Positions 2,458-41,845 of a stretch of 41,845 bases of DNA are shown piece after piece. A model generated the notes under the pieces. The model was not told the DNA's origin and searched no databases. It worked only from the letters and a program-made list of their open reading frames with translations. The stretch is taken from the NCBI GenBank assembly GCA_015057615.1, contig SVEA01000087.1:1-41845 (forward strand). Reading direction: 5' to 3'. Positions within the stretch are counted from its first letter, which is position 1; each line of letters starts with the position of its first letter. The stretch comes from Lachnospiraceae bacterium (lineage in GTDB: Bacteria > Bacillota > Clostridia > Lachnospirales > Lachnospiraceae). The position numbers and the translations under genes are program-made.

Positions 2458-2738
2458 ATCAAAAGCAAATTTATAAATTCGACTTCATAAATTTACACAA
2501 TTTATGTGTTGATAAGTAATATGAAACAAATTTCATTCGCAACACGTTATTCCCAAAGCACTGCATAAAACGCAGTACTTGGATTGAAGTACGTAGTGGT
2601 ACATAAGACCACAAAATACGTGGTCTAAGTGCCAACGACTTCAAACAGCTGCAAACTAAAATATTGTTTCCTATTACTTAAGTTTTACCTTGCTTTGTGC
2701 AAATTGATGAAGACGATTTGTTAGGAAGGCTTTGTCAC
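2458..2738 (+). repeat. R1 intergenic repeat, copy 1 (plus orientation)
   Basis: About 281 bp filling most of the 336-bp gap between ktrB and the first ktrA. The left end TCAAAAGC and right end GGCTTTGTCAC are near-inverted repeats with about 45-bp arms that both contain an (A/T)TTTGCACA-like core. The inner hairpin is AGACCAC/GTGGTCT with a 7-nt loop; in copy 5 it is AGATCAT/ATGATCT, so both strands changed together. No coding frame is conserved among copies. A promoter for ktrA may lie inside or after it, but I cannot place one. Confidence 0.85.
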
Positions 2739-2781
2739 TCATATCTTAGTATGCAATATATGTAAAAGGGGAGAATTTTTT

Positions 2782-3459
2782 ATGTTTCATATAAATAAAC
2801 CAGCGATCGAATTTGGTGTGATCGGACTTGGCCGCTTCGGAACGGCGCTTACCCAGACATTGGTTGGTGCCGGAAAGGAAGTAATTGCAATTGATAACAG
2901 CGAAAGCAGAGTGAAAAAAATCAGAAATATAACGGAGAATGCCTTTGTGGTTGAGACGTTTGATAAGATGACTCTGGAGGATACAGGGATCAAAAATTGC
3001 GGTACCGTTATTATTTGTATCGGCGATAGTATCGACGTCGGAGTGCTTACGACATTGAATGTAATCAGCCTGGAGGTACCCAGGGTGATTGCCAGGGCAA
3101 TGAGCTATGAGGAAGGGCTGGTTCTGGAAAAGATAGGCGCGGAGGTGATCTATCCGGAACGTGATATGGCAGTTCGTTTGGCAAACCGGCTCACGAATGC
3201 CAATATCCTAGATACCATTCAGCTTTATGGCGACATTGATGTGAGTGAATTAAAGCTTACTGCTAAAATCGCCGGTCAGACCATTGAGCAGATCAATCTC
3301 CGGCAGAAATATAAGCTTAACATTATTGCGATTGAGCATAATGGAGATACCACTACAGAGATTGATCCGCAATGCAGTTTGCATGAAAATGACAGCATCG
3401 TAGTGGTAGGAAAAAGAGAAAACATACGTAAGTATGAGTCCTTTTTGTCGATGGAATAA
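2782..3459 (+). CDS. ktrA: KtrA/TrkA family potassium uptake regulatory subunit (copy 1)
   Basis: Cytosolic RCK protein of 225 aa that forms an octameric ring gating KtrB. An N-terminal Rossmann RCK_N domain (about 9-130) starts with GLGRFGTAL, the dinucleotide-binding loop, followed by the acidic strand end AIDNSES. An RCK_C domain (about 142-225) ends with DSIVVVGKRE. RCK_N binds ATP/ADP and RCK_C binds c-di-AMP in characterised Firmicute homologues. The RBS AAAAGGGGAG precedes the ATG. A second, closely similar gene lies at 5369-6040, with the same opening (KPAIEFG) and matching blocks throughout, so the two are recent paralogues. Which of them, or whether both, pair with the single KtrB cannot be told from sequence. 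Confidence 0.93.
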   Translation: MFHINKPAIEFGVIGLGRFGTALTQTLVGAGKEVIAIDNSESRVKKIRNITENAFVVETFDKMTLEDTGIKNCGTVIICIGDSIDVGVLTTLNVISLEVPRVIARAMSYEEGLVLEKIGAEVIYPERDMAVRLANRLTNANILDTIQLYGDIDVSELKLTAKIAGQTIEQINLRQKYKLNIIAIEHNGDTTTEIDPQCSLHENDSIVVVGKRENIRKYESFLSME

Positions 3460-3507
3460 TTATAACCAGCAAAGGAAAAAATCCTTAAATATTCATAAAA
3501 TCGTTGT

Positions 3508-3581
3508 AATATCCAGAATACATATGGTATACTATTCCGTATCTATAGATGGAATAGGATATCCTATGGTTTCTGGATATT
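3508..3581 (+). repeat. Long hairpin between ktrA copy 1 and corC
   Basis: Outer arms AATATCCAGAA (3508-3518) and TTCTGGATATT (3571-3581) are perfect inverted repeats; inside them a second, less perfect arm pair ends in CTATTCC/GGAATAG around a 12-nt loop. A T-rich stretch follows, so it could terminate the ktrA transcript. It is much longer than a normal terminator and may be a small palindromic mobile element. Confidence 0.6.
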
Positions 3582-3643
3582 ATATTTTCTAAACACATGA
3601 ATTTTTAAGCTAAAATTAGTTTTTATTATGGAGGAATTAAATA

Positions 3644-4972
3644 ATGGAAGATACTGACCCTGACGCCTATAGTATTTCTTTGCAAATTACTATACTGGTA
3701 CTACTGACTCTGGTAAACGCATTTTTTGCTTGTGCAGAAATGGCTATGGTTTCCGTAAACAAAAGTAAGATTAAACGACTTGCGGAAGAAGGGAAAAAAA
3801 GCGCGGTTCTTGTGCAAAACTTTTTAGAGGAGCCGACAAAATTCTTATCAACAATTCAGGTTGCAATTACTTTAGCAGGGTTCTTTTCTAGTGCTTCTGC
3901 TGCAGCAGGACTTTCCGATCCTTTGGGAGTATGGTTGAATAGTCATAACATTCCCTATGGTAAGCAGATCTCTTTGATTTCAGTAACCTTGATTTTATCC
4001 TACTTTACATTGGTGTTTGGTGAGCTGGTACCCAAAAGGATCGCATTGCAAAAACCGGAGGAGATCAGCATGTTTTGCGTAAAGCCGGTTAAATCGGTTT
4101 CCAAGTTTGCTTATCCCTTTATTAAATTACTGACCTTTACAACGAATCTTGTAACAAAGCCGTTTGGTATTAAGGAAGGTAATACGGAAGAGATTCTTTC
4201 ACGAGAAGAGCTTAAATCCCTGGTGCGAGAGGGGCAGGTGCATGGTGTACTGAACAAGAAGGAAAAAGAAATGATCAATTCGATCATGGAATTTGACGAT
4301 AAAACAGCCAAAGAAATCATGACACCGAGAATTAACACATTTGCCATTGATATCTCAGAACCGAGAGAAGAGTATCTGGATGCCCTTATGCATGCAAAGT
4401 TTACACGAATTCCCGTATATGAAGAGGACATTGATGATATTATCGGGATATTGTTTATTAAAGATTTCTTTAAGGAAACGGTAAAGAAGGGTCTGGATCA
4501 TGTAGATATCCGATCGCTCTTAAGAAAGCCTTACCTGGTTCCCGAGAGCAAGAACATTAATGATCTGTTTCGTGAATTGCAGCAGTCCAAAAAGCAAATT
4601 GCTGTATTGATCGATGAGTATGGCGGATTTTCCGGAATTGTTACGATGGAGGACTTGGTAGAAGAGGTCATGGGAGATATTGAGGACGAATACGATCCGA
4701 TTTCCTATAAAATCAAGAAAATAGATGATTTGACGTATCTCATTGATGGGTTAGTAAGCATCGATGAATTAAATAATAGATTGGACTTGAATCTATCCTC
4801 TGAAAATTACGATACGATTTCCGGCTTTCTGATTGACCATCTCGGATCGATTCCGCAGGAAAAGGATGATCGTACCATAGAAATTGATAATTTGGTATTT
4901 AAGCTGGAAAGCGTAAAACACAAACGTATTGATAAGGTTAAACTATATATAGGAAAAGAAGACGAATCATAA
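3644..4972 (+). CDS. CorC/HlyC family (DUF21 + CBS pair) membrane protein
   Basis: Hemolysin C/CorC family protein of 442 aa. An N-terminal DUF21 (CNNM) membrane domain has hydrophobic segments at about 12-34, 66-85, 104-127 and 137-160. It is followed by a CBS pair (about 205-345, with the typical MTPR and RIPVYEEDIDDIIG blocks) and a C-terminal CorC_HlyC domain (about 360-440). Bacterial homologues act in Mg2+/Co2+ export or Na+-coupled Mg2+ efflux; the CBS pair binds ATP. The RBS is TGGAGGAA ahead of the ATG. It sits between two ktrA paralogues, so the region as a whole is devoted to cation homeostasis. The transported ion is not determinable here, and the old name hemolysin is not supported by anything in the sequence. 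Confidence 0.9.
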   Translation: MEDTDPDAYSISLQITILVLLTLVNAFFACAEMAMVSVNKSKIKRLAEEGKKSAVLVQNFLEEPTKFLSTIQVAITLAGFFSSASAAAGLSDPLGVWLNSHNIPYGKQISLISVTLILSYFTLVFGELVPKRIALQKPEEISMFCVKPVKSVSKFAYPFIKLLTFTTNLVTKPFGIKEGNTEEILSREELKSLVREGQVHGVLNKKEKEMINSIMEFDDKTAKEIMTPRINTFAIDISEPREEYLDALMHAKFTRIPVYEEDIDDIIGILFIKDFFKETVKKGLDHVDIRSLLRKPYLVPESKNINDLFRELQQSKKQIAVLIDEYGGFSGIVTMEDLVEEVMGDIEDEYDPISYKIKKIDDLTYLIDGLVSIDELNNRLDLNLSSENYDTISGFLIDHLGSIPQEKDDRTIEIDNLVFKLESVKHKRIDKVKLYIGKEDES

Positions 4973-5004
4973 AATGAGGCTTCGTATTTCCATCAGCATT
5001 AATA

Positions 5005-5094
5005 TAAGAGGGTCTGTGACCTTCCTACACAGAAATGAAAGATGAACATCTGTCTTTCAAACAGTGTATTACAGGAAGATCACAGACCCTCTTA
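5005..5094. repeat. R2 palindromic repeat, copy 1
   Basis: 22-bp arms (5005-5026 and 5073-5094, both containing GAGGGTCTGTGA) differ at one base. The inner part holds TGAAAGA/TCTTTCA. A second copy is at 41426-41585: both share the inner block CTGTCTTTCAAACAGTG. It probably also ends the corC transcript. The rest of the gap up to 5368 is AT-rich and I see nothing further in it. Confidence 0.75.
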
Positions 5095-5368
5095 CTTATT
5101 ATTCGCGTTCGTGGTGTGACAGCCCCTTATGCATTTTTCCTCATTTTTATAACCATTCTCCTTTCAACCTTCTACACCATTTAAATTAATTCATTTTCCT
5201 CTTGTTTCTTACCCATTAAGGTTTTATGATAAAGTTAAGATGATTGATTATTCTATGGAATTTTGGAGCATGGTTTATTATACTTAAGGAAATAATAAAA
5301 AACCATTGATATATTTATTATTATAAAAAAACAAGCTATTTATAAAGGATTAGATGGAGGAATGCTAT

Positions 5369-6040
5369 ATGTTGAATCGTAAACCGGCAATTGAATTTGG
5401 TATTATAGGACTTGGGCGCTTTGGTACCGCTCTGGCATCTTCCCTTGCAGAAGCCGGAAAGGAAATCATGGTTCTTGACAGCAATGAAAGTAAAATAAAG
5501 CAAATCCGGAATTTTACGGATAATGCTTTTGTTGTTGGAGAGCTGACAAGGGAAAGCTTGGAGGAGGCAGGGATTCAAAATTGTGGAACCGTTATTGTAT
5601 GCATCGGAGAGAAAATTGATGTCAGCATCTTAACGACGCTGAACGTTATCAATATGGGAGTTCCCAGGGTCATTGCCAAAGCGATCAGCCAGGAGCAGGG
5701 GAAGGTGTTGGAGAAGATCGGAGCGGAGGTTATTTATCCGGAGCATGATATGGCGATACGATTAGCAAAGCGTTTGGTCGCTTCCAGAGTAATGGATTAT
5801 ATCGTACTGAATAATGACATCTCCATCACGGAACTAAAACTTACCTCTAAGGTTGCCGGACAGACCGTGCGGCAGGTAGATCTGCGTAAGAGATTTAAAT
5901 TGAACATAATAGCAATTGAAACGAGTGAATTAGCTACGACAGACATTACGCCGGAGCTGAAGCTAAGGGAGGATGATGTTATCGTAGTAGTAGGAAAAAC
6001 CGAAGATATCCGCCGGTTTGAGGATCATTTATTGAATTAA
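5369..6040 (+). CDS. ktrA: KtrA/TrkA family potassium uptake regulatory subunit (copy 2)
   Basis: Second cytosolic RCK protein, 223 aa from the ATG at 5369. The upstream in-frame ATG at 5354 is part of the RBS region (TGGAGGAA, spacing 7 to 5369), so it is not used. Order of domains as in copy 1: RCK_N with GLGRFGTAL, then RCK_C ending in DVIVVVGKTE. It is highly similar to the gene at 2782-3459 over its entire length, with most differences in the RCK_C half, the c-di-AMP-binding part in homologues. A strong terminator follows at 6137. Two KtrA paralogues and one KtrB could form mixed or alternative rings; this is inference. Confidence 0.92.
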   Translation: MLNRKPAIEFGIIGLGRFGTALASSLAEAGKEIMVLDSNESKIKQIRNFTDNAFVVGELTRESLEEAGIQNCGTVIVCIGEKIDVSILTTLNVINMGVPRVIAKAISQEQGKVLEKIGAEVIYPEHDMAIRLAKRLVASRVMDYIVLNNDISITELKLTSKVAGQTVRQVDLRKRFKLNIIAIETSELATTDITPELKLREDDVIVVVGKTEDIRRFEDHLLN

Positions 6041-6136
6041 AATAGTGCAGAAAGATCAAAGAGGAAGAATCAAAGAATAAGGCAATGATTTGATGATTTA
6101 AATATTATCAAAAGAACAAGAAAGTGTGAAATAACC

Positions 6137-6172
6137 AAAAGCAACCGTGAAATCATCACGGTTGCTTTTGTA
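6137..6172 (+). terminator. Rho-independent terminator after ktrA copy 2
   Basis: AAAAGCAACCGTGA (6137-6150) pairs perfectly with TCACGGTTGCTTTT around a 5-nt loop. It is symmetrical enough to work on both strands, so it may also stop rsgI read-through. The remaining stretch to 6417 holds only a small hairpin (ATTATCCA/TGGATAAT, about 6183-6208) and no gene. Confidence 0.88.
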
Positions 6173-6417
6173 GTGTGGGGGATTATCCAATTTTGTTGGA
6201 CTGGATAATGTATCAAAAATTTAGAAGCTAGCAAAATTAGTTGTTTTGGAAATCGACTTTGCCGGAATTAAATTTCTTGCTATTTTACCGGATTCGTCTG
6301 CATTTCCACGCGTATCCATGTTTTTTTAATTGGATTACGACTTATCTATATTAGGGTTATCCTGTTGTCTGTTTTTGTCACTGCACGGTTTCTCTTATCT
6401 TGAAGAATTTCTCTTTT

Positions 6418-8010
6418 TTATCGACTGCTTTTTTTCGTTATTGTCTTCCCGGATTTTCTATTATTCTGATTCGCTGATTTTCCCGGACTGCTTTGTTTTT
6501 TATCTGTCGATTTCTGTGTTAATTTTCCAGCGGTCTTTTTGCTTTTATACGCTGATTTGTCCGTCGGTTTTTCAGGGCTTTTCTTATCTTTATCGTCTGA
6601 ACTTTTAGAGCCAATCCTGGATTGATTCGCCGGTTTCTCCGAATCTTTCCTGAATTTATCAGATAGATTTCCAGAGCCTTTCTTGGATTCCGTTGCTTTC
6701 TCCGGGCTGTTCTTTGAATGCTCCGTTGGTTTTTTCGGTTCCATCTTTGACTTATCCGTTGAATTATCTGTGTTCGTCTTTTCATTGTCCGACGGTTTTC
6801 TCGGGCTCTTCTGGCTTTCCTTATCGGATTTTTCAGCGTCTTTTCTAAATATATCAAAGAACGTTTCAAATTCCTTCTTATCCTTCTTATCGGAATGCTT
6901 CGAACCTTCTTTAAATTTGTCAGTGAACCAAACTGATTCCTTTTTATCCTTCTCATTTGATTTCTCAGCGTCCTTTGTAAAGCTATCCGCCGATTTATCA
7001 AAATCCCATTTGAAAATATCAGCAGATCGTGCAGCGCCTTTTTTTACTTGTTCTGTAGCTTTTTCGGCTTCCGCTTTCGCTTGTTCAATAGCATTACTTA
7101 TTTTCTTTGATGCATTTCTTTTAACATCTCGATAGGCTCTCCTCTGGGCAAATTCGTTCCATTTGGCAGCTTCACCTGTTTTCTTTGCTGCCTGCGGCAA
7201 AGCTTTTTCGCCAGCAGATTTTGAAGTACCCTTATCATCTTCGATCGCTTTTTTTGTATCTGCAATTGCGGAGTCAGCAGCTTTCTTATTTTCCTCGGTT
7301 GCCTTCATAATTTCTTTTACCGGCTTGCTTAGCCATTCCTTAACATCGATTGTCTCAGGATCGGCAGCGGATGCCTGTAAATCTTCAACTAAATTTAACT
7401 TTCCCGGAGTTACTCCAAGCTCTTTGGCTTTTTCGACCTGATCGAAGCCTACGCTAAAGGCTTCTACTTCAACCTCCTGGCCCTTTTTCGCCAATCCGGT
7501 ATCTACGGTCTCATGCAATTTCTGTGCCAACGCTTCTGCCTTTTTATCATTTTTTGCAGAAGCTGCTATTACAAGCCCGGTTTCCGTATTATTTTCGAAG
7601 TAACCTGTCTGAGAAATTTGTTCAATAGCAGCCGTTAGAGCGTTGTTAATTGTTTTGTTTTTTAAATCATTCAAATAAACTGCCTTTAGTATCTCTTCGC
7701 CATCCTCGTTCATTGCTTTTGCCTCGAGTACGCGGTCAAAACGGTTAACAGTGAACTCGATCGATGGGTTAACATCTAAGCTGACATAGGAATACGGACT
7801 TGCATATGCCCATGTTCCGCTTCCCAATACTACCATCGCGGCAGCAGAAGCAGCGAAAGCAATTAGCTTTTTATCCCGCTGTATCTTATTAATATTTATT
7901 TGAATTATCTGTCCAATCGTATAATTATTGTTTTTGACTTTTACGATGCAACCATCATCAGATAGGACTGCAGCATAACGATTTTCTATTTCTACAACAA
8001 CGGCTTTCAT
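6418..8010 (-). CDS. rsgI: RsgI-type transmembrane anti-sigma-I factor with Lys/Ser-rich tail
   Basis: Anti-sigma factor of 530 aa, overlapping the sigI stop by one base (TAATG). Residues 1-45 form the cytosolic RsgI N-terminal domain that binds SigI. A single membrane helix spans about 49-69. The extracytoplasmic juxtamembrane domain (about 72-215) contains the conserved block SLDVNPSIEF; the N81-P82 bond matches the site where RsgI proteins are known to self-cleave. From about residue 225 to the end the chain is low complexity, rich in Lys, Ser, Asp, Glu and Pro, with loose repeats of the form D-x-F-x-K-D-A-E-K-S. In cellulolytic clostridia this position holds a carbohydrate-binding module; none is seen here, so the signal sensed is unknown. 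The tail is very basic and may stay close to the anionic cell wall. Confidence 0.88.
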   Translation of the reverse strand: MKAVVVEIENRYAAVLSDDGCIVKVKNNNYTIGQIIQININKIQRDKKLIAFAASAAAMVVLGSGTWAYASPYSYVSLDVNPSIEFTVNRFDRVLEAKAMNEDGEEILKAVYLNDLKNKTINNALTAAIEQISQTGYFENNTETGLVIAASAKNDKKAEALAQKLHETVDTGLAKKGQEVEVEAFSVGFDQVEKAKELGVTPGKLNLVEDLQASAADPETIDVKEWLSKPVKEIMKATEENKKAADSAIADTKKAIEDDKGTSKSAGEKALPQAAKKTGEAAKWNEFAQRRAYRDVKRNASKKISNAIEQAKAEAEKATEQVKKGAARSADIFKWDFDKSADSFTKDAEKSNEKDKKESVWFTDKFKEGSKHSDKKDKKEFETFFDIFRKDAEKSDKESQKSPRKPSDNEKTNTDNSTDKSKMEPKKPTEHSKNSPEKATESKKGSGNLSDKFRKDSEKPANQSRIGSKSSDDKDKKSPEKPTDKSAYKSKKTAGKLTQKSTDKKQSSPGKSANQNNRKSGKTITKKSSR

Positions 8011-8726: not shown

Positions 8727-8746
8727 TTCTTACACCTCCTGCTTCT

Positions 8747-9177
8747 ATGAATAGGTCATTTCCTAACAAATCGACTTCTTCCATTTGCACATAGAAGGAA
8801 GAACCTAAGTAATTAGGAAACAATATTTTACTGAGCAACTGTTTGAAGTCGTTGATACTTAGACCCATGTATTTTGTGATCTTATGTACCATTACGTACT
8901 TCAATCCAAGTATTGCGTTTTTGGCAATGCTTTGCGTTGCGTTTTATGCAGCACTTTGGAAACAATGTGTTGCGAATAAAATTTGTTTCCTAGATTAAGG
9001 TGCCAAAAGGTGCGTAGCACTTATTCTGATACAAGGTATTGCTTGGTAAGCGAGCTTACACATCAATATTTTGTACCAGAATATTACCTTCGGTGCTTTT
9101 GACATCTTAATCCTATTACTTAACAACGTATAAATTGTGCAAATGGAAAAAATTATTTTGTAAATCAGCTTTTGCTA
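8747..9177 (-). repeat. R1 intergenic repeat, copy 2 (minus orientation), interrupted
   Basis: It lies directly upstream of sigI. Read on the minus strand it begins with AGCAAAAGCTG and runs through TTTGCACAATTT, GGATTGAAGTACGTAATGG and CAACGACTTCAAACAG, all shared with the other R1 copies. It is 431 bp long instead of about 280 because a ~120-bp foreign segment (8993-9112) splits it. The outer end near 8750 is degenerate. The stretch 9178-9324 beyond it holds nothing I recognise. Confidence 0.82.
8993..9112. mobile_element. Palindromic MITE-like insert nested in R1 copy 2
   Basis: About 120 bp starting GATTAAGGTGCCAAAAGG and ending CTTTTGACATCTTAATC, imperfect inverted ends. The inversion continues inward (ATTCTGATACAAGGTATTG against CAATATTTTGTACCAGAAT), so nearly the entire insert can fold into one hairpin. 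It interrupts a block that is continuous in other R1 copies (TTTCCTATTACTT) and the bases CTA occur on both sides (8990-8992 and 9113-9115), as expected of a 3-bp target duplication. No coding capacity. The ends share TCAAAAGC-like bases with R1 itself. Confidence 0.72.
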
Positions 9178-9324
9178 CTTAAATCATAGAATTCATATTA
9201 CGAATTTATGTGACAGCGATTATTTTTTACGGAGTGAAGATGATGTAATTATCAAGCCCTATTCTAACATTATTCCTGATTCGCTGTAAACCCTTATTCA
9301 AAATATGGGAAATTCTTCCTAAAC

Positions 9325-9401: not shown

Positions 9402-9406
9402 TTTAA

Positions 9407-9412: not shown

Positions 9413-9524
9413 TTGTAATTGTTAGGAAAGAAGGCACAAAACTTGCACGATTATATTTTGATTGAATAAACTGAATTGAGAATATAGAATGCACAGATTC
9501 CGTTGTGTTTTTAAGGAGGCTTTT

Positions 9525-11279
9525 ATGTTTAACAGTAACAGGGGAGCTGCTACCTATGCTGGCATACCTTACAATGATATCAATTGGTATAATGTAGAAG
9601 GCCAGCCTTTTGGAACAGCTTCAAGCTTCAATGCAATAGTATTTGAAGATGCAAATAATATTGTTGACACTCAAGGAGCAATGGCAGTAGGAAGAAATTT
9701 CGTAAGTCCCCGTGGTCTTAACCTGGCCTATGGGAATGCAAGTACCCAAAGAGGAATTGGATATACTTCGGATTTAGTTCGTTTTTTAGTTGGCGGAGAT
9801 GTAGCGATGCAAGGCCCGCTGGTTGTTTCCGGTCATGTAGTTGGCGGAGGCAATTTTAACGTTGCAAGTGGAAGTACCTATATGATTGGTAAGAATGGGG
9901 ATCCCACGCAGGCGCAGCAGTTAAGTAATCTTTACCAGGCAAGTGGAGGAAGTCAATATTGGAGGCCGAGTGATCGTGGAAATCATTATGCGATATCCAG
10001 TTACGATGTGGACCGATATATTCCTGCAAGCAGGATTAACGCTAATGTAGCACAGTTTTTCCGAGATGCGAGGGAAAGCATCACCAACTTCTATCAATGT
10101 ATTCGGAATCTTCCGGAAAACGGAACCGTAACCGAGCGGTATCACCAATTAATTCTTCATGGTAACGATCCGGTTCAAAATGTATTTCTGATTGATGCAC
10201 GACCGAATGGAGCATTAACAAAAGAAATTAAACTGGAGATACCTGCCGGAAGTTTGGCTATTGTTAAATTAAGAACCGGAAATAATGCACACATCCAATA
10301 TGGGCTTTGGGGTGATGCAAACCATGTAAGCAATACATTATATGTATTTGAGGATGCTTCTAATATCTTCATGGAAGTACCGGCAGCTATCTGGGGCAGT
10401 GTTTTAGCTCCGCAAGCTACGTTCCATGCACATCAGACCGGCGGGGTTATCAGTGGAAATGCTGCATTCCGATCCTTTGCGGTAAATGCCGGAAGCGGCT
10501 TTGAATTTCATTGGTACCCGTTCGCAGGCGGTGTGGTATGTCAGGGAATGGCACCGGAAGTAGTGCCAGCCCCCGCACCGGTCCCCGCCCCCGCACCGGT
10601 CCCAGCACCCGCTCCAGCGCCAGCACCTGCCCCAGCGCCTGCCCCGCGTCCGACACCTGCCCCGACACCAGCTCCGACACCCACGCCGAGTCCGGCTCCG
10701 TACCCGGTACCTATTCCGATACCGATACCGACACCTGCCCCAGCACCTGCACCCACTCCGGTCCCGGTTCCTTATCCGGTGCCAAAACCAGTCCCGGTAC
10801 CAAGGCCCGTTCCTGTTCCGGTACCGACCAAGTGTCCGAAATGCCCGGAGCCAAGTACCCGTATCGAATACCAGCCTTATCCGGTTCCCGTACCCGCCGA
10901 ATGTCCGGAGTGCCCGGAATGTCCGGAACCAAGTACCCGCATTGAATATCGGCCCTATCCAGTTCCAATTCCGGTAGAAGTTCAGAAAGAATGTCCGGAA
11001 TGTATGATTGAACCAGGTGTTATCTTCGGATGTATCTGGGGATGCAGCTGCGGTGACAACCATGATTGGGAAGTAAAGCTATATGAAATATGTGAGGAAA
11101 AGAGAATCCTTCTTTATTGTGAAAATATCTGCTCCTGCGGATGCTTCCGTTTTGAAGTACCGTGTGAGGACTGCTATGCACTGGAAATCTGTCCGGTAGG
11201 TCCGATCAGACGGAACAGACCCTGCAGACCAATGTTAACATTAAAGAATGTAGGAGTATTGAATTTAGTGATTGATTGA
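9525..11279 (+). CDS. Choice-of-anchor A-like protein with Pro-rich and Cys-rich tails
   Basis: Protein of 584 aa from the ATG at 9525, which has AAGGAGG seven bases ahead; the earlier in-frame ATG at 9489 has no RBS. Residues about 15-335 resemble the choice-of-anchor A domain of Gram-positive surface proteins, with the blocks FNAIVFEDANNI, GAMAVGRNF and, near the end, WGSVLAPQATFHAHQTGGV. Then come about 100 residues of Pro-Ala/Pro-Val repeats, encoded by DNA far richer in G+C than its surroundings. The rest (about 435-584) is Cys-rich, with two copies of CPEPSTRIEY and paired Cys motifs. No signal peptide, LPxTG motif or membrane helix is visible. Function unknown; a surface or spore-layer structural role is only a guess. 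Confidence 0.8.
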   Translation: MFNSNRGAATYAGIPYNDINWYNVEGQPFGTASSFNAIVFEDANNIVDTQGAMAVGRNFVSPRGLNLAYGNASTQRGIGYTSDLVRFLVGGDVAMQGPLVVSGHVVGGGNFNVASGSTYMIGKNGDPTQAQQLSNLYQASGGSQYWRPSDRGNHYAISSYDVDRYIPASRINANVAQFFRDARESITNFYQCIRNLPENGTVTERYHQLILHGNDPVQNVFLIDARPNGALTKEIKLEIPAGSLAIVKLRTGNNAHIQYGLWGDANHVSNTLYVFEDASNIFMEVPAAIWGSVLAPQATFHAHQTGGVISGNAAFRSFAVNAGSGFEFHWYPFAGGVVCQGMAPEVVPAPAPVPAPAPVPAPAPAPAPAPAPAPRPTPAPTPAPTPTPSPAPYPVPIPIPIPTPAPAPAPTPVPVPYPVPKPVPVPRPVPVPVPTKCPKCPEPSTRIEYQPYPVPVPAECPECPECPEPSTRIEYRPYPVPIPVEVQKECPECMIEPGVIFGCIWGCSCGDNHDWEVKLYEICEEKRILLYCENICSCGCFRFEVPCEDCYALEICPVGPIRRNRPCRPMLTLKNVGVLNLVID

Positions 11280-19555: not shown

Positions 19556-19576
19556 AATAGTATAGTTGATTTAATT

Positions 19577-19856
19577 GTCAAAAGCTGCTTTATAAAACTA
19601 ACTTCATAAAATTTGCACAATTTATGCATTGATGAGTAATATGAAACAAATTTCATTCGCAACACGTGTTCCCCCAAGTACTGCATAAAACGCAGTACTT
19701 GGATTGAAGTACGTAATGGTACATTAGATCATGAAATACAAGATCTAAGTACCAACGACTTCAAACAGTTGCGTATTAAATATTATTTCCTATTACTTAA
19801 GTTTTACCTTGATTTGTTCAAATTGATGAAGACGATTTCCTAAGAAAGCTTTTGAC
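19577..19856 (+). repeat. R1 intergenic repeat, copy 3 (plus orientation)
   Basis: 280 bp with clean ends GTCAAAAGC and GCTTTTGAC. Contains a perfect hairpin AAGTACTGC/GCAGTACTT and a second stem GGTAC-TTAGATC/GATCTAA-GTACC with a single bulge. It fills most of the gap between clpX and engB. Confidence 0.88.
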
Positions 19857-19869
19857 AAAATATAAAATT

Positions 19870-24111: not shown

Positions 24112-24129
24112 GAATGAATTACGATTCAA

Positions 24130-24411
24130 GTGTCAAAAGCTGATTCATAAAACCAACTTCATCAATTTGCACAATTTATGTATTGACAGGTAATAGGAAA
24201 CATATTTCATTCGCAACACATTGTTCCCAAAGCACTGTAAAAAACGCAGTACTTGGTTGAGGTACGTAATGGTGCGTAAGACTATAAAATACGTGATCTA
24301 AGTACCAACGACTTCAAATAGCTGCTAATGAAAATATTGTTTCCAATTGCTTGAATTTAACCTTGATGTGCAAATTTATGAAGACGATTTGTTGAGAAGG
24401 CTTTTGAACAC
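24130..24411 (+). repeat. R1 intergenic repeat, copy 4 (plus orientation)
   Basis: 282 bp with the clearest ends: GTGTCAAAAGC at the left and GCTTTTGAACAC at the right. The two arms can be aligned over about 46 bp, both reaching ATTTGCACA. This is the best reference copy for the family. It fills the gap between the kinase gene and the ECF gene. Confidence 0.88.
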
Positions 24412-24468
24412 TTCTATCAATAACCATAAGTCATCTTAAGATTTTGATAGAAATAGGAGAGATAAGAT

Positions 24469-30392: not shown

Positions 30393-30415
30393 GAAAGAAT
30401 GAATAGGATTTAAAG

Positions 30416-30692
30416 GGCAAAAGCTTTCCTAATAAATCGTATTCTTCCATTTGCACAAATTAAGAAAAAACTTAAGTAATCGGAAACAATATTTTAATGC
30501 GCAACTGTTTGAAGTCGTTGGTACTTAGATCATGTGTTTTATGATCTTATGTACCATTACGTACTTCAATCCAAGTGCTACGTTTTTTGCAGTGCTTTGG
30601 GAGCAATGTGCTGCGAATGAAATATGTTGCCGATTACTTATCAATGTATAAATCGTACAAATGGAAGAAGTGGTTATAAATTAGCCTTTGCT
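30416..30692 (-). repeat. R1 intergenic repeat, copy 5 (minus orientation)
   Basis: About 277 bp in the 336-bp gap between prfA and the SpoU methyltransferase gene. The inner hairpin is AGATCAT/ATGATCT flanked by GGTAC/GTACC; two base pairs differ from copy 1 on both strands. Ends GGCAAAAGC and GCCTTTGCTC are slightly decayed. Confidence 0.85.
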
Positions 30693-30728
30693 CCTTAAAT
30701 CCTAGAAAAAGACAAAGGACTTGTTTGT

Positions 30729-31622: not shown

Positions 31623-31637
31623 GTATGGGTAAAAGTT

Positions 31638-31920
31638 GAGTCGAAAGCCTTCCTAACAAATAGCCTTCTTTAATTTGCATAAAGTCAAGGAAAAACTTAA
31701 GTAATAGGAAAGAATATTTTAATGAGCAACTATTTGAAATCGTTGGCATCTCAGCTACGTATTTTGTGATCTTATGTACCATTACGTACTTCAATCCAGG
31801 TATTACGTTTTGCAATACTTTGGGGATTACGTGTTGCAAATGGAATATTATCCCATTTGCTTATCAATGTATAAATTGTACAAATTGATGAAGTGAATTT
31901 TATAAGCTAGCTTTTGACAC
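31638..31920 (-). repeat. R1 intergenic repeat, copy 6 (minus orientation)
   Basis: About 283 bp; ends GAGTCGAAAGCC and AGCTTTTGACAC. The inner hairpin has decayed compared with copies 1 and 5. Only about 950 bp separate it from copy 5, which has the same orientation; the methyltransferase gene lies between. The remaining bases to 32070 are AT-rich with no further feature. Confidence 0.85.
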
Positions 31921-32070
31921 TTATATTCAATTAATTTATTTCGAACGTGCCTGGATAAGATTAAAAGATAATTAAAAAAGAGTGGAACGCATTGTATATT
32001 ATTAACTTATCAACTAAAATAAAAAAAGGATAATTATTTAAGTGATTGCAGGAAAGGGGGGATTTCTTTG

Positions 32071-33644: not shown

Positions 33645-33725
33645 AGGGTAACTTACCGTCTTTCTCCATTTGCACAAATCAAGTACATGGATAGATTGTG
33701 TAAATTGATGAAGTTGGATCGATAG
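33645..33725. repeat. R1 remnant, copy 7 (ends only)
   Basis: About 80 bp holding the two inner parts of the R1 terminal arms, CCATTTGCACAAATCAAG and TTGTGTAAATTGATGAAG, almost back to back. The central 200 bp with both hairpins are missing, as in an internally deleted MITE. Confidence 0.7.
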
Positions 33726-33777
33726 AACAATTAGAATGATTAAAAAATGAATTGGAGGCAAGTGGAAACCAGTTCAT

Positions 33778-33924
33778 TTTTTTATCGTATAGGAAATTAC
33801 GTCCTATACGATAAAAAACCTCCATGCGAACATAGTTCGCATTAGGATGACGCACTCGTGCGTAAGGTATTTATCTACCTGCGGCAGAATGCGCTCGGCG
33901 CGAGAGTTTGCCTTGGCAAACTCT
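33778..33924. repeat. R3 multi-hairpin repeat, copy 1
   Basis: Starts with a perfect 17-bp inverted repeat (TTTTTTATCGTATAGGA, 33778-33794, and its complement 33802-33818). Then come GCGAAC/GTTCGC, ACGCAC/GTGCGT and, at the end, AGAGTTTGCC/GGCAAACTCT with a 2-nt loop. A second copy is at 37791-37921. The following stretch to 34167 is AT-rich and also contains a GCGAATTAATTCGC palindrome (about 34103) but no gene. Confidence 0.78.
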
Positions 33925-36063: not shown

Positions 36064-36069
36064 TATTTT

Positions 36070-36330: not shown

Positions 36331-36347
36331 CAAATATTAATTAAAAA

Positions 36348-36416
36348 AATCTGATATGGATAGATGGCTTCCTGTGGGATACCGTATATCTATATCAGAT
36401 TTCCTGATTCTTTTTG
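36348..36416 (+). terminator. Hairpin with T-tract, likely terminator
   Basis: AAATCTGATATGGATAGATG (from 36348) pairs with the complement ending ATATCAGATTT at 36402, a few mismatches, with TTTTT at 36411-36415. It separates the LtaS-like gene and R4 from argF. Confidence 0.6.
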
Positions 36417-36451
36417 TGGCTGAACGGTTGCTGAAATATTCTTTAAATACC

Positions 36452-36485
36452 TTGACATCCGCATTAAATTAGAATAATGTATAAT
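36452..36485 (+). promoter_or_regulatory. Promoter of argF
   Basis: Perfect TTGACA (36452-36457); the -10 is either AATAAT (36473-36478, spacer 15) or a TATAAT at 36480-36485 with too long a spacer. I did not find a convincing ArgR box. Confidence 0.5.
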
Positions 36486-36575
36486 TAAACACTAACAATG
36501 TATGAAAATAACTCAAGCGGTAAGCTTATACCAGCACCAAAATTCGCGAAAGGTTGTTAGAACGGAGGTTATGAT

Positions 36576-37514
36576 ATGAATTTAAAAGGGAGAAGTTTTT
36601 TGACATTAAAGGATTATACACCGGAGGAGATTGCATATTTGATTGATTTGGCAGCGGAGCTAAAGGAAAAGAAGAAGCAGGGAATTACCGGAAACCATTT
36701 GAAAGGGAAAAACATCGCTCTAATCTTTGAGAAGCCGTCGACCAGAACCCGGTCTGCTTTTACGGTAGGCTGTGTGGATGAAGGAGGGCATCCGGAGTAT
36801 CTTGGGAAAGAGGATATTCAATTAGGACACAAGGAAAGTGTCGAGGATACCGCCCGGGTACTGGGAAGAATGTACGATGGTATCGAGTTTCGCGGGTTTA
36901 CGCAGGAGACGGTGGAAAAGCTTGCAAAATACAGCGGGGTCCCGGTATGGAACGGACTGACGGATACCTATCATCCCACACAGATTTTAGCAGACTTCTT
37001 GACTTTAAAAGAGCATTTTGGTAAGCTGAAAGGGTTAAAACTTGTCTATGCAGGAGACGGCAGAAACAACATGGCAAATAGCCTAATGATTGGTTCCTCA
37101 AAAATGGGAATTGACTTTACCATACTGGCACCGAAAGCCTTATGGCCCGGGCAAAAGCTGGTGGATCTTTGCCAAACCTATGCAAAGGTTTCGAAAAGCA
37201 GGATCACCCTGGCGGATTCCCCGGACGCAGCCGAGGGTGCCGATGCAATTTATACGGATGTATGGTGCTCCATGGGAGAGGAAGAAAAAGCTGCCGAAAG
37301 AATAAAGCTGTTAAAACCGTACCAGGTGAATCATCAATTGCTTGCTCGGACAAATAAGGAGGATACCATTGTACTGCATTGCCTTCCCGCAGTGAAAGGA
37401 AATGAAATTACAGAAGAAGTATTTGAGCGGTTTTCTGACGTTATTTTTGACCAGGCTGAGAACCGTATGCATACAATTAAAGCAGTTATGGTTGCTACCT
37501 TAGGAAATATGTAA
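36576..37514 (+). CDS. argF: Ornithine carbamoyltransferase
   Basis: Makes citrulline from ornithine and carbamoyl phosphate. 312 aa. The carbamoyl-phosphate loop STRTR is at 55-59, HPTQ at 133-136, the ornithine-binding D-x-x-x-SMG at 228-234, and HCLP with the catalytic Cys at 268-271. The SMG block marks it as OTC and not aspartate carbamoyltransferase. The RBS is ACGGAGG. It stands alone, without other arg genes, so biosynthetic (argF) or catabolic (arcB) use cannot be decided from context; no arcA or arcC is nearby. Confidence 0.93.
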
Positions 37515-37535
37515 TTTAAAGGAGTAATCCCTACG

Positions 37536-37805
37536 ATGGATAAATTGAAGAAACTGATCAAAGAATTTTCCCTTTCCTATGATGTAATTAACTTGCTGCT
37601 GGGAACGGTATTACTTATATTTCTTGTACTTGTTTTTCGGTATCCAGGTAACCGCCTATTTTTGTTGATCGCGTTTACCTCTGGCGGTTTTATGAATATT
37701 ATCAATGGACTTAAGTTTAAAAAGAATTCAAAGAAAAAAAGCATGGGAATGTCTTTTATCCTGTTCGGTATGATGGTCATTTTCATCGGATTTTTTATCG
37801 CATAG
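37536..37805 (+). CDS. Small membrane protein, unknown function
   Basis: 89 aa with three hydrophobic segments (about 16-34, 40-56, 70-88) and a Lys-rich loop (KFKKNSKKKS) between the last two. I do not recognise a characterised family. It starts 21 bp after argF with AAAGGAG upstream, so it may be co-transcribed. Its last codons, including the stop TAG, lie inside the first arm of R3 copy 2, which begins at 37791; the present C-terminus FFIA was therefore probably set by the element's insertion. Confidence 0.78.
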   Translation: MDKLKKLIKEFSLSYDVINLLLGTVLLIFLVLVFRYPGNRLFLLIAFTSGGFMNIINGLKFKKNSKKKSMGMSFILFGMMVIFIGFFIA

Positions 37806-37921
37806 GAAATTGCGTCCTATACGATAAAAAATGCTCCGCTAAGGATGCGCACTCGCACGTATTGTATTTTGCCAGCGATGCTGGCCGCGCTCGGCGCTAG
37901 AGTATCGCAAGCGAAACTCTT
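37791..37921. repeat. R3 multi-hairpin repeat, copy 2
   Basis: Starts TTTTTTATCGCATAGGA, complement 37815-37831 with one G-U where copy 1 has a Watson-Crick pair. It continues with GCCAGC/GCTGGC, GCGCTCGGCGC and ends with AGAGTATCGC/GCGAAACTCT. The last hairpin keeps AGAGT/ACTCT at the same place as copy 1 but with different inner bases. It overlaps the end of the preceding gene by 15 bases. Confidence 0.78.
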
Positions 37922-37995
37922 TCTTGTGGCAACAGTGTAATGAATTAAAAATATATTCCATTCTTAGACTCCAAACGAAAGGAAGTTTATTCGAT

Positions 37996-38358
37996 ATGTA
38001 TCAGGATAGGGTAGTGCTATGCGCCAGCAGTGCTTATGAAAAAAAGTTTTGGTTTAATGAGGATTTTGCAGCTTTACCGGAGCAGGTAAAGCAAGAATTA
38101 AAAATTATGTGTGTGCTATTTACGGAGGACGTTGGGGGAATACTATCGATGGAATTTAGTGAGGATGGAACTCTCCTTTTTCGGGTAGATGCCAGTGAGG
38201 ATGATTTCCTATTTGATGAAATCGGAAGTGCCTTAAAAGTAAAAGAGCTTCAGAGAACGAAGAAGGAGCTCTTAGAGGCGGTTGAAATCTATTATCGGGT
38301 ATTTTTTCTTGATCAGGACGCTTCCGGTTTGCTAAGCAGCGAAGATAGGGAAGATTAG
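37996..38358 (+). CDS. Uncharacterised protein (DUF6145-like)
   Basis: 120 aa from the ATG at 37996, ten bases after AAAGGAAG; the frame opens at 37924 near the end of an R3 repeat, which argues against the longer form. The blocks [29 protein letters not shown] and [15 protein letters not shown] are ones I associate with a Lachnospiraceae family (DUF6145), though I cannot check this. Soluble, acidic, no known motif. The following coaX starts 56 bp later. Confidence 0.72.
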
Positions 38359-38414
38359 CATCCATTGTTTCAATGGATTTGATAAATCGAATTGAAAATA
38401 CAGGAGGTAGACCT

Positions 38415-39191
38415 ATGCTATTAGTCATAGACGTTGGAAACACGAATATTACTTTGGGTGTATTTGAGGATATTAATCTAAAAGCGACCCTTCGTATGAC
38501 GACTCAGATTGCCAGAACATCGGATGAGTATGGACTTCTTTTGCGGGATCTTCTTATGGCAAAAAATGTACGTATTCAGGACATTGATTCGGTAACGATT
38601 GCATCCGTTGTTCCGAAGACCATGCATTCTTTAGTGTCCGGAATCATAAAATACTTAGGAATTACTCCTTTGCTGATCGGTGCCGGCACCAAAACAGGAA
38701 TCAAGATACCGACACCGAACCCGAAGGAGATCGGTTCCGACCGAATCGTTGATTTGGTTGCAGCCTATGAAATCTATGGCGGACCGGTTCTGGTAATCGA
38801 TTTTGGAACAGCGATCACGTATGATTTAATTACGGAGGATGGTTCCTTCATTGCCGGTGTTACAAGCCCCGGTTTACGGATATCAGCGAATGCTTTATGG
38901 AGAGAGACGGCGAAGCTTCCGGAGATAGAAATTGTACTTCCCGATACGATTCTTGCGAAGGATACCATAACAAGCATGCAGGCAGGTCTTCTCTATGGAT
39001 GCATCGGTCAGACGGAGTATATTGCAAAACGTATGATAGCCGAATCCAAAATCGCAGGCTGCAAGGTAGTGGCGACCGGCGGTTTGGGTAAGGTCATTTC
39101 GGATAATACGGATGTGATTAACGTATACGATTCAAACTTAACCTTGAAAGGACTTAAAATTATCAGCGATAAAAATCGAATTGGGAGATAA
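38415..39191 (+). CDS. coaX: Type III pantothenate kinase
   Basis: First step of coenzyme A synthesis, ASKHA-fold kinase of 258 aa. ATP-binding DVGNTNI is at 6-12, GSDR at 107-110 (pantothenate-binding region), and the second phosphate loop DFGTA at 129-133. The start at 38415 has CAGGAGG at good distance; the open frame begins 14 codons earlier without support. CoaX enzymes need a monovalent cation such as K+. dusB follows after 5 bp, in one operon. Confidence 0.95.
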
Positions 39192-39196
39192 ACGCG

Positions 39197-40153
39197 ATGA
39201 GTTTCTATATCGGTAACGTTAGAATAAAAGGAAATTTATTTCTTGGACCAATGGCAGGGGTAACCGACCTGCCATTTCGTGTCTTATGCAAAGAAAAAGG
39301 GGCGGATCTTGTCTTTACCGAGATGGTAAGTGCGAAGGGAATCCTATACAATAATAAGAATACGGAAAGCCTTCTTACCATTTCGGAGGAGGAAAGGCCG
39401 GCAGCTGTTCAGTTGTTTGGCGCAGATCCGGATATCATGGCCGAGATGGCAAAGCGCATCGAGTACCGTAACTTTGATATCCTGGATATCAATATGGGAT
39501 GTCCGGTTCCTAAGGTGGTTAAAAACGGCGAGGGCTCAGCATTAATGAAAGACCCTCAGCTGGTCGGAGAGATTGTTCGTAAGGTATCCAAGGCGATTGA
39601 AAAGCCGGTGACGGTTAAGATTCGTTCGGGATTTGATCCGGATCATATCAATGCGGCAGAGATTGCAAAAATAGCGCAGGAAAACGGTGCGGCAGCAGTT
39701 ACGGTCCATGCGCGGACAAGGGAGCAGTTCTACCGGGGAAAAGCGGATTGGGAGATCATCCGCAGGGTCAAGGAGGCTGTTACGATACCGGTAATCGGAA
39801 GCGGAGATGTGTTTTCGCCTGAGGATGCAAAGCAGATGCTTGCGCAGACAAGCTGTGATGCAATTATGATTGCAAGGGGAGCACGGGGAAATCCTTGGCT
39901 GTTTGAACAGATAAAATCATATCTGGTGAATGGGATGTACCTTCCGAAGCCGGATTTTGCAGAGGTAAAAAGTATGATACTGCGGCATGCGATCTTGGAA
40001 ATTGAGCATAAGGGGGAATATACCGGAATCCGGGAGATGCGTAAACACATTGCCTGGTATACGGTTGGCTACCCTTTAACCGCGAAATTACGAAGCAGGG
40101 TAAATGAAATTGAAAACCTGCAGGATCTAAAGCAGCTTCTTGAGGAATATTAG
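39197..40153 (+). CDS. dusB: tRNA-dihydrouridine synthase
   Basis: FMN-dependent reductase of uridines in the tRNA D-loop. 318 aa; TIM-barrel part about 1-240 with LGPMAGVTDLPFR near the start and the catalytic Cys at 102 in NMGCPVPK. The C-terminal helical tRNA-binding domain is about 245-318. The Nifr3/DusB-type signature (GCPVPKVVKNGEGSALM) supports the B subfamily. It directly follows coaX. Confidence 0.93.
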   Translation: MSFYIGNVRIKGNLFLGPMAGVTDLPFRVLCKEKGADLVFTEMVSAKGILYNNKNTESLLTISEEERPAAVQLFGADPDIMAEMAKRIEYRNFDILDINMGCPVPKVVKNGEGSALMKDPQLVGEIVRKVSKAIEKPVTVKIRSGFDPDHINAAEIAKIAQENGAAAVTVHARTREQFYRGKADWEIIRRVKEAVTIPVIGSGDVFSPEDAKQMLAQTSCDAIMIARGARGNPWLFEQIKSYLVNGMYLPKPDFAEVKSMILRHAILEIEHKGEYTGIREMRKHIAWYTVGYPLTAKLRSRVNEIENLQDLKQLLEEY

Positions 40154-40238
40154 GCGATAAAAATAACCAAAGGATTCCGGTTAAGCGGTGAGATACTATC
40201 AAAGTGTCACAAAACTATAATTTTATTGGAAATAAACA

Positions 40239-40266
40239 TTGATTTTTTCCGTAGTTCCGTTATAGT
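40239..40266 (+). promoter_or_regulatory. Promoter of asd
   Basis: TTGATT (40239-40244), 16-bp spacer, TATAGT (40261-40266), 56 bp before the asd start. No lysine riboswitch or T-box was seen in this short leader. Confidence 0.55.
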
Positions 40267-40321
40267 ATATTTACAGAAAAGACAGATGTTTGCCATACAG
40301 GAACAAATGGGAGGAATAAGA

Positions 40322-41407
40322 ATGGATAAACTAAAAGTAGGAATACTCGGTGGAACCGGTATGGTCGGACAGCGATTTATAACCTTGCTGGAGAATCATC
40401 CCTGGTTTGAGGTGGCTGTTGTAGCGGCAAGTCCGAGAAGTGCCGGAAAGACTTACGAGGAAGCAGCAGGAAAACGGTGGAAGATGAGAACACCGATGCC
40501 CGAGAGCGTGAAGAAGCTGATTGTCAAGGATGTAAATAATGTAGCTGAGGTCTGCCAAGAAGTGGATTTTGTATTCAGTGCAGTGGATATGACCAAGGAA
40601 GAAATTAAGGCGATTGAGGAAGCCTATGCAAAGATGGAGACACCAGTGGTTTCCAACAACAGTGCGCACCGATGGACACCGGATGTTCCGATGATCGTTC
40701 CGGAGCTGAATCCGGAGCATCTGGAAGTGATTCCTGCGCAGAAGAAGCGCTTAGGTACCAAGCGAGGCTTTATTGTAGTAAAACCGAACTGTTCCATCCA
40801 AAGCTATACACCGGCTCTGCATGCTCTGAAAGAATTTGGACCAAAGACGGTAGTCGCTACGACCTATCAGGCAATTTCGGGTGCAGGCAAGAACTTTACG
40901 GATTGGCCGGAGATGGTTGATAATGTGATCCCTTATATCGGCGGGGAGGAGGAAAAGAGCGAGCAGGAGCCTCTGCGGATCTGGGGTAAGGTTTCTGACG
41001 GTCAGATCGTGAAAGCAGACAGCCCAGTTATTACCACCCAGTGCATCCGTGTACCGGTAACCGACGGCCATACAGCGGCAGTTTTTGTAAGCTTTGAGAA
41101 AAAGCCTACGAAGGAGCAGATGATAAAAGCATGGAACGAATTTAAGGGTCTACCTCAGGAGCTTCAACTTCCCAGTGCTCCAAAGCAGTTTATCAAATAT
41201 TTTGAAGAGGATAACCGTCCTCAGGTAAAGCTTGACTGTGATTATGAAAATGGGATGGGAGTAACCCTTGGAAGACTTCGGGAAGACAAGGTATTTGATT
41301 ACAAATTCGTAGGATTGTCCCATAATACCGTGCGCGGCGCAGCAGGCGGTGCCGTACTAACGGCTGAGCTGTTAAAGGCGAAGGGATATATCACAAAGAA
41401 GAATTAA
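40322..41407 (+). CDS. asd: Aspartate-semialdehyde dehydrogenase
   Basis: Makes aspartate semialdehyde for lysine, threonine, methionine and diaminopimelate. 361 aa from the ATG at 40322 (GGGAGGAA upstream); the frame opens 32 codons earlier across the promoter. The NADP loop GGTGMVGQRF is at 10-19, the catalytic Cys at 157 in KPNCSIQ, and the catalytic His at 250 in VPVTDGHT. The sequence resembles the archaeal/fungal-type branch (KPNCSIQ, long N-terminal HPWFE block), not the E. coli type; this branch is common in Clostridia. Confidence 0.94.
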   Translation: MDKLKVGILGGTGMVGQRFITLLENHPWFEVAVVAASPRSAGKTYEEAAGKRWKMRTPMPESVKKLIVKDVNNVAEVCQEVDFVFSAVDMTKEEIKAIEEAYAKMETPVVSNNSAHRWTPDVPMIVPELNPEHLEVIPAQKKRLGTKRGFIVVKPNCSIQSYTPALHALKEFGPKTVVATTYQAISGAGKNFTDWPEMVDNVIPYIGGEEEKSEQEPLRIWGKVSDGQIVKADSPVITTQCIRVPVTDGHTAAVFVSFEKKPTKEQMIKAWNEFKGLPQELQLPSAPKQFIKYFEEDNRPQVKLDCDYENGMGVTLGRLREDKVFDYKFVGLSHNTVRGAAGGAVLTAELLKAKGYITKKN

Positions 41408-41425
41408 GATAGAAGTGCAATCAAT

Positions 41426-41585
41426 CCAAGGGGGTTAATGTTCTTCCTCACACTGGATGTAAGATATATCCTTCATTTTGTATGCCATAATCGTACAAAT
41501 ATATAAGTTTGTTCGCTTATGTCACATAAAATGAACGACCTGTCTTTCAAACAGTGCATTATAGGAAAAATATTGACCCCCTTGG
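41426..41585. repeat. R2 palindromic repeat, copy 2
   Basis: 23-bp arms CCAAGGGGGTTAATG.. (41426-41448) and ..TTGACCCCCTTGG (41563-41585) with four differences, some G-U. The inner block CTGTCTTTCAAACAGTG is shared with copy 1, but this copy is 70 bp longer. The outer arms differ in sequence from copy 1 while remaining paired. It probably also ends the asd transcript. Confidence 0.7.
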
Positions 41586-41628
41586 AATCATTCGCATCGA
41601 TTGCAACAGCTTTATTCCAAAGATATGA

Positions 41629-41845
41629 GTGACAAAAGCCTTCTTAACAAATCGTCTTCATCAATTTGCACAAATCAAGGTAAAACTATAGCAATAGGAA
41701 ACATTTTAATTCGCAACTGTTTGAAGTCGTTGGCACACACCATTACGTACTTCAATCCAAGTATTGCGCTTTGTGCAATGCCTTGCGGAACTGCGCGTTG
41801 CGAATGAAATTTGTTATATAACTTGTCAACGCATAGATTGTGTAA
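41629..41845 (-). repeat. R1 intergenic repeat, copy 8 (minus orientation, cut by window edge)
   Basis: Begins GTGACAAAAGCC and runs through ATCAATTTGCACAAATCAAG, GCAACTGTTTGAAGTCGTTGG and CATTACGTACTTCAATCCAA like the others. About 35 bp that form the inner hairpin in other copies are missing (GGCACACACCATTACG). It continues past 41845. Confidence 0.85.

Follow-up and report, generated by a model that had tools for sequence, protein, structure and literature searches.

R1, an intergenic repeat found in eight places of contig SVEA01000087.1 (41,845 nucleotides, hereafter the window) from a Lachnospiraceae bacterium (assembly GCA_015057615.1), is a palindromic miniature inverted-repeat transposable element (MITE) of approximately 295 bp. 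Its folded core is not specific to it but occurs within elements with unrelated ends, and the pairing of this fold is kept at the DNA level, either by selection or by copying between its arms. The explanation we favor, with a probability of roughly 0.63, is that R1 is a non-autonomous MITE moved in trans, whose center represents a wider fold of the Lachnospiraceae kept as folded DNA that aids propagation. The genome of origin (own genome, below) is a 4.07-Mb draft in 215 contigs, of which the window is one.

R1 copies, ends and target duplications

The first-pass annotation of the window had placed R1 at eight sites between genes and in both orientations, and R1 sequence was indeed present in all of them, between the main open reading frames (ORFs) and on both strands. 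The limits were set from 47 near-full-length, well-aligned copies of the own genome and run GAT...ATC in copies 1-6:

2449..2745, + strand: R1 copy 1, full length; fold core 2513-2681
8745..9185, - strand: R1 copy 2, interrupted by R2; core match 8813-8992
8993..9112, - strand: R2, another MITE, 120 bp long and lying within R1 copy 2; ends GATTAAGRTGTCAAAAGC
19568..19862 (right limit uncertain), + strand: R1 copy 3; core 19633-19800
24123..24418, + strand: R1 copy 4; core 24187-24354
30407..30701, - strand: R1 copy 5; core 30472-30640
31631..31927 (right limit uncertain), - strand: R1 copy 6; core 31697-31863
33645..33725, - strand: R1 copy 7, a relic with the second stem retained and the center deleted
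~41622..41845, - strand: R1 copy 8, truncated where the contig stops; core match 41687-41825, lacking the hairpin tip

The extra length of copy 2 comes from the 120-bp R2 inside it. The ends, previously described as imperfect inverted repeats of about 45 bp, have that form but are longer than proposed, GATATGAGTGACAAAAGCC being one common form. Among the 47 aligned copies, one side has the type GAT(A/T)TGAGTGACAAAAGC and the other either its reverse or GATTAGCCCGACAAAAGC reversed, with variants. Ends of the GATATGAGTGACAAAAGC type are present in both arms of a short, non-coding element of approximately 295 bp, as terminal inverted repeats (TIRs) are in a MITE. The hairpin tips read AGACCAC/GTGGTCT in copy 1 and AGATCAT/ATGATCT in copy 5, exactly as had been reported, and these two types account for 13 and 7 of 53 own-genome copies, with mixed forms between them. 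When most of copy 1 (2449-2735) was folded as single-stranded DNA, its stability corresponded to z = -4.96, and none of 200 shuffled sequences folded as well.

R1 is dispersed in many copies, as MITEs are. When up to three mismatches were allowed, a 25-base pattern of the core matched the own genome 217 times (108 forward and 109 reverse), some of the matches being at contig ends, where a single copy could count twice; the reversed pattern, used as a control, gave no match. The expectation that the genome holds more copies than the window was therefore borne out, and a profile built from five copies also retrieved further ones among the own-genome loci examined. The 458 candidates of a first look, 40 of which were scored, do not amount to a copy count.

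The insertions are flanked by a target-site duplication of constant length, 7 bp. Ten of 46 copies (the 47 less one truncated at a contig end) have perfect 7-bp duplications against 0.09 expected from mismatched flanks, with a mean match of 0.565 versus 0.372 in mismatched pairings; flanks of 6 bp gave four perfect copies (0.384 versus 0.324), and those of 8 and 9 bp one each. In the window, copy 1 is bordered by TTAATAT and TTAGTAT, equal at six of seven positions. The nesting of R2 is repeated in another R1 copy (L053), where R2 lies in the same R1 sequence between CTATTAC and CTATTAT (6/7 equal), whereas only CTA is repeated at the flanks of the window's R2. The R2 end is similar to that of R1, R2-type ends spaced exactly 120 bp apart recur elsewhere in the own genome, and in two complete Anaerocolumna records the same end type bounds elements of approximately 50 to 273 bp; therefore, several MITE families have one end type in common. 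A different repeat family, with copies of approximately 95 and 255 bp and GATTCGAGTGTCAAAAGGT ends, was also seen in Anaerocolumna sp. MB42-C2 and A. sedimenticola (L126-L133). In the features tested, R1 behaves as a MITE, except that the three transposase families searched yielded no autonomous element with its ends.

A fold within elements with unrelated ends

Distant copies have a common layout, a three-way-junction fold of stems P1, P2 and P3, with cores of approximately 140 nt lying within elements of 210-295 bp. P1 is the long stem, whose sequence differs from lineage to lineage, and the outer stems have no clear sequence in common between genera. P2 is a hairpin of the form GGTAC..TAA / TAA..GTACC with a loop mostly of seven bases (51 of 65 rows in the listed forms), and P3 is a mini-hairpin that reads GC-GNRA-GC on the strand complementary to that of the model. 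These features were scored in the 65 rows of an alignment named A3, none of them from the own genome; the search model already contained the P3 loop of the near copies, which gives the P3 counts a small bias. The loop was GNRA in 65/65 rows (GAAA 24, GAGA 17, GCAA 9, GGGA 8, GCGA 4 and GGAA 3), and the closing bases of P3 had changed jointly in 10 rows (GT..AC in 8, AC..GT in 2) and separately in 2. The TAA/TAA step was found in 53 of the 65, and of the 61 rows that could be scored, 60 had the A·A opposition that it leaves, which reads T·T on the complementary strand. The R1 copies of the window have a longer arm in place of P3, and the eight own-genome matches listed for the covariance model are 136-144 nt long.

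The elements that enclose this core differ. One genome (G321) and its relatives have an R1-like core in an element of 209-211 bp with TAGGCGATTGCGAAACTC ends; three of its 10 loci are flanked by duplications matching at 10/10, 9/9 and 8/10 positions, with no clear match in the rest, so that the duplication length is tentative. In another genome (G327) the core lies within an element whose ends are again different, TATACTTTATTGTT.

By DNA similarity alone, a window copy was matched in 7 of 41 genomes, the own genome included. A 26-base pattern found 52 stretches in Anaerocolumna, Anaerosporobacter, Herbinix, Mobilitalea, Lachnoclostridium UBA1308 and assemblies named only Lachnospiraceae, Clostridiales or Bacillota, and two of the species so matched are classed by NCBI as Lachnospiraceae, from which the family of the window (own family, below) is taken to be the same. 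When a covariance model was built on the central 142 positions, it picked out 43 of the 392 genomes searched in the order, spread over 22 of 173 genera and all in the own family; no more than eight matches were scored in any one genome, which makes the copy numbers lower bounds. At the level of the phylum, a second covariance model had matches in 4 of 398 genomes, once more only in the own family. Of the 394 without a match, 374 appear only as a total, and one of those itemized belongs to the own family; both the order-wide and the phylum-wide searches used stricter filters, by which weak matches are lost. No match was obtained by blastn of one R1 copy against plasmid and phage collections. 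Apparent copies without the core in one genome (G024) were rejected, as they proved to be scaffold gaps of N.

Cores often occur in pairs of opposite orientation, approximately 40-1500 bp apart (L163, L171, L172, L178, L179, L182, L185, L186 and L201-L204), in nine genomes (G309, G360, G352, G397, G332, G266, G358, G357 and G387), and at least two such pairs (L202 and L203) lie between convergent ORFs.

Covariation and base pairing at the DNA level

Three alignments of the fold were analyzed. A1 holds 34 copies, 32 of them from outside the own genome, 27 of the 34 having been chosen by a one-strand pattern, and was freely aligned; of A2, the first 92 of 106 rows were used, the remainder being 13 rows that read palindromes already included from the reverse strand and a single weak, separate match; A3 contains 65 matches to the model at E of 1e-8 or below (53 sources, 64 distinct copies) aligned to the structure model, which favors the structure. 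Double changes were present in 28 of 50 pairs of A1. In A3, 95.1% of 3158 cells were paired compared with 57.8% after shuffling, double-change cells numbered 1229 against 339.8, and the covariation score was 0.926, against 0.210 for shuffled alignments and 0.097-0.110 for slid ones. A tree-aware test of our own, made after the idea of R-scape, found 6 of 49 structure pairs significant at E 0.05 in 102 copies and 7 of 49 in the 49 copies of other genomes, with none in slid controls. On the branches of the tree, 47 double changes preserved a pair and 8 disrupted it, against 2-4 preserved in slid controls; for the own genome alone the counts were 7 and 3 (slid 1-2). A first run that included the flanks returned two pairs, both within the structure; such runs, like those over all pairs, are weaker than the test restricted to structure pairs.

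The paired change between the tips of copies 1 and 5 had been read as implying selection, but does not by itself show it, and the own genome does not support the argument: no structure pair was significant there, and across the whole element of 47 copies one-sided changes (695) far exceeded double changes (154, with 50.4 expected if independent), 104 of which keep Watson-Crick pairs. Covariation is strong only across genomes, so the proof rests on other genomes, the first two copies being real examples of it, and the copies in the window, taken by themselves, argue only weakly for selection. One-sided changes also outnumbered double ones in the core of the own-genome copies (220 and 33) and in the whole elements of G321 (44 and 13) and G327 (20 and 9), and the cores of four other groups of 5-9 copies gave 6 and 1, 28 and 8, 16 and 23, and 12 and 10. 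We infer that copies decay after insertion and that the spreading lines remain paired, a reading that UBA1308 (16 and 23) and the genome G266 fit less well.

Covariation is commonly taken as a sign of RNA. Where the RNA of one strand is selected, G·U pairs should lie far above A·C oppositions on that strand. As a control we took 30 6S RNA loci of the same family among the best matches (57 of 60 family genomes had a match), aligned with MAFFT and folded with RNAalifold, since tRNAs gave too few genes (4). The control contained 1185 Watson-Crick pairs, 221 G·U and 8 A·C, whereas A1, treated in the same way, contained 1687, 26 and 33. The balance was similar in A3 with the model structure (3018, 36 and 39), in A3 with the RNAalifold structure (40 G·U and 63 A·C) and in A2 (78 and 75). 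Because G·U does not rise above A·C overall, unlike in 6S RNA, the pairing is kept at the DNA level, which narrows the earlier "folded form, in DNA or RNA" to the first of the two.

Several observations weigh against a fold selected as folded DNA, and they are given here with the alternatives that they favor. A2 and A3 were fitted to the model, which also served to select their distant copies, though A1 shows the same lack of a G·U excess; pairs with any double change were 49 of 50 in A3, but 43.2 in shuffles as well, and pair types numbered 150 against 155.5 shuffled. On 53 own-genome copies, the tree-aware test found 0 of 49 structure pairs significant, and a test of all column pairs on the core found none at E 0.05, with 14 of the top 40 in the structure. 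In addition, strict pairing could have its origin in arm-to-arm copying. It is quite possible, although we would not call it probable, that template switching during replication copies one arm of the imperfect palindrome onto the other, in which case R1 would be an ordinary MITE and its covariation silent on function. The double changes do lead from one Watson-Crick pair to another with few wobble forms, and in G266 the copies have almost the same core but different outer P1 arms, which nevertheless remain self-complementary, double changes exceeding one-sided ones (47 versus 24, with 40 of the 47 keeping Watson-Crick pairs). Template switching has also been proposed to create and maintain hairpins in RNA genes (PMC8794818). 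Nevertheless, it would erase the A·A opposition and the GNRA mini-hairpin, which is one-sided, and both are kept (60/61 and 65/65 rows), so that arm copying alone would not account for them; moreover, the own-genome excess of one-sided changes indicates that arm copying is not fast there.

The orientation of the copies bears on a second alternative. With genes defined as ORFs of at least 90 codons rather than by annotation, 39 of 66 own-genome copies lie between tandem genes, 8 between convergent and 4 between divergent ones, 2 over an ORF and 13 at locus edges; an ORF is overlapped by 4 of 61 copies in near relatives and by 6 of 47 in distant genomes. Where the neighboring genes are in tandem, the model strand coincides with the coding strand in 35 of 39 own-genome copies (35 to 4, p 3.4e-7) and in 27 of 35 copies of near relatives (27 to 8, p 0.0019). 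This bias counts among the points against, since it suggests that a transcript or transcription matters, although it is absent in distant genomes (7 of 13, or 7 to 6); it may come from transcription, from target preference or from selection against one orientation. The tandem-gene copies of the window itself stand in both orientations.

A structured RNA spread by transposition, such as an mRNA-stabilizing hairpin or a substrate of RNase III, with its transcript under selection, would account for the bias, and would also agree with the loops of P3, for a GNRA loop with a purine as its third base is a hallmark of RNA. The P2 helix taken alone, on the coding-like model strand of A2, likewise has G·U above A·C (22 versus 7), and an RNA functional from both strands would balance the two counts. 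We nonetheless consider a selected transcript unlikely: over the whole fold the counts are equal, in the 92 rows too, the strand bearing the GNRA loop is antisense to the genes in the orientation-biased copies, and none of the 26 sources searched gave an Rfam match above the gathering score. It is still less probable that R1 is an ordinary MITE whose interior is conserved by descent from one recent autonomous element, its fold being without a role. The TIRs, the target duplications and the nested MITE would suit such an origin, but the ends of different lineages are unrelated, and the outer stems remain paired without clear common sequence between genera, as the paired fraction of cells in A3 indicates.

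Mobility, comparison with known elements and significance

That R1 is a MITE family spread by a transposase encoded elsewhere, as first proposed, agrees with its copy number, its target duplications and the nested R2, but no such transposase turned up in the families searched, which is a further point against the folded-DNA explanation. The matches to PF01609 (5, own genome only), PF00872 (12, in 9 genomes) and PF13612 (0, in 9 genomes), some at loci cut by contig ends, included, within the flanking sequence covered, no transposase gene bounded by R1-type ends. An IS4-like element (L122, contig C13 of the own genome, ~1-3268), with a PF01609 match in a frame of 464 aa, is inserted in an R1 hairpin; it was considered as the mover of R1 and rejected, since it has itself landed in an R1 copy. 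Ends paired at a distance of 0.5-4.5 kb in the loci examined, and the listed ends in the two complete Anaerocolumna records, proved to be only neighboring MITEs or repeats. A gene flanked by two cores, in the manner of repetitive extragenic palindromes (REPs) and their RAYT enzymes, did not recur in eight loci with cores of opposite orientation, for which ORFs (L172, L178, L201, L202 and L203) or the sequence only (L163, L171 and L179) were inspected; one further locus (L205) has two cores of one orientation.

Among known families, Rfam gave no match in the window and, at a relaxed threshold, nine in 25 loci, all below the gathering score and mostly to miRNA models, so that no Rfam family claims R1. 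One of these, MIR1437 at L156, falls on the core itself (58.5 bits, gathering 168), and may be the kind of match that a long hairpin gives. The first-pass annotation had known no name for R1, and the literature searched, with weak coverage of subscription journals, likewise yielded no description of such an element; a term search of a 2026 survey of hairpins and cruciforms found no mention of Lachnospiraceae, Clostridia or miniature inverted elements (PMC13155455). Bacterial MITEs such as Correia/NEMIS, ERIC, RUP and QMITE resemble R1 in being small, non-coding and intergenic, with inverted ends, short target duplications, many copies and a stable folded hairpin (PMC2229807, PMC10969869). The R1-type fold differs from them in having an interior kept across genera by double changes, with no overall excess of G·U, within unrelated ends.

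REPs are not known to be flanked by target duplications. They measure 20-40 bp, carry a GTAG tag and depend on a tyrosine (HUH) enzyme that recognizes the DNA hairpin as a single strand (PMC3733652). Like R1 they are high-copy intergenic palindromes, and the core pairs in opposite orientation recall the bacterial interspersed mosaic elements (BIMEs) (PMC2817692). R1, at approximately 295 bp and with inverted ends and 7-bp duplications, fits a REP neither in size nor in its duplications. In the attC sites of integrons, the arms vary and unpaired features are kept. These sites are also folded DNA hairpins (PMC11641012), and among folded DNAs whose arms are free to vary in sequence they come closest to R1; unlike them, R1 occurs as dispersed copies with target duplications, and no integrase, cassettes or array was seen, although no search aimed at integrases was made. 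Palindromes renewed by template switching resemble R1 in that their stems change by concerted double changes (PMC8794818), but the kept mismatches and the one-sided mini-hairpin of the R1-type fold are unexpected from switching alone.

Two other repeats were noted in the window. A pair of 41-bp palindromes (TTTTTTATCG...; 33778-33818 and 37791-37831), 95% alike, represents either another short repeat family or terminators, and direct-repeat units of 44 and 71 nt lie at 10616-10979 within the ORF at 9489-11279.

Under the folded-DNA explanation, a transposase supplied in trans would carry out the cutting and joining at the ends of R1, leaving the 7-bp duplications observed around the copies. 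The center belongs to the wider fold, seen only in Lachnospiraceae, in which P1 changes freely, P2 keeps its A·A mismatch and P3 forms the mini-hairpin. This fold would be selected as folded DNA, either as a single strand or as a cruciform, because it helps the element to propagate, and would presumably act in transposition rather than in the host; the lines that spread across genera would stay paired, whereas the copies left behind in a genome would decay. A bolder version, which we put forward as doubtful, is that these elements form a mobile DNA class of the whole family Lachnospiraceae in which the recognition unit is the folded DNA and not its sequence: the arms would be free to change provided that they pair, the GNRA mini-hairpin, the mismatch and the junction would be kept, some protein would attach to the folded single strand or cleave it, perhaps when transcription exposes it, and the module would have been adopted by several transposon families. 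A target exposed by transcription would explain the orientation bias.

The count of G·U pairs against A·C oppositions, set beside an RNA control, is a simple test that separates covariation at the DNA level from that of a one-strand RNA. If template switching is what keeps the arms paired, R1 and its relatives would be a natural system in which to measure it. If the fold is instead what the mobilizing protein sees, structure-directed DNA mobility in Gram-positive bacteria would become directly testable, and folded-DNA recognition would, if true, constitute a further system of DNA recognized by structure, beside attC/IntI and REP/RAYT. In either case, an abundant family of folding repeats, for which no name was found in the searches made, is present in a major bacterial family.

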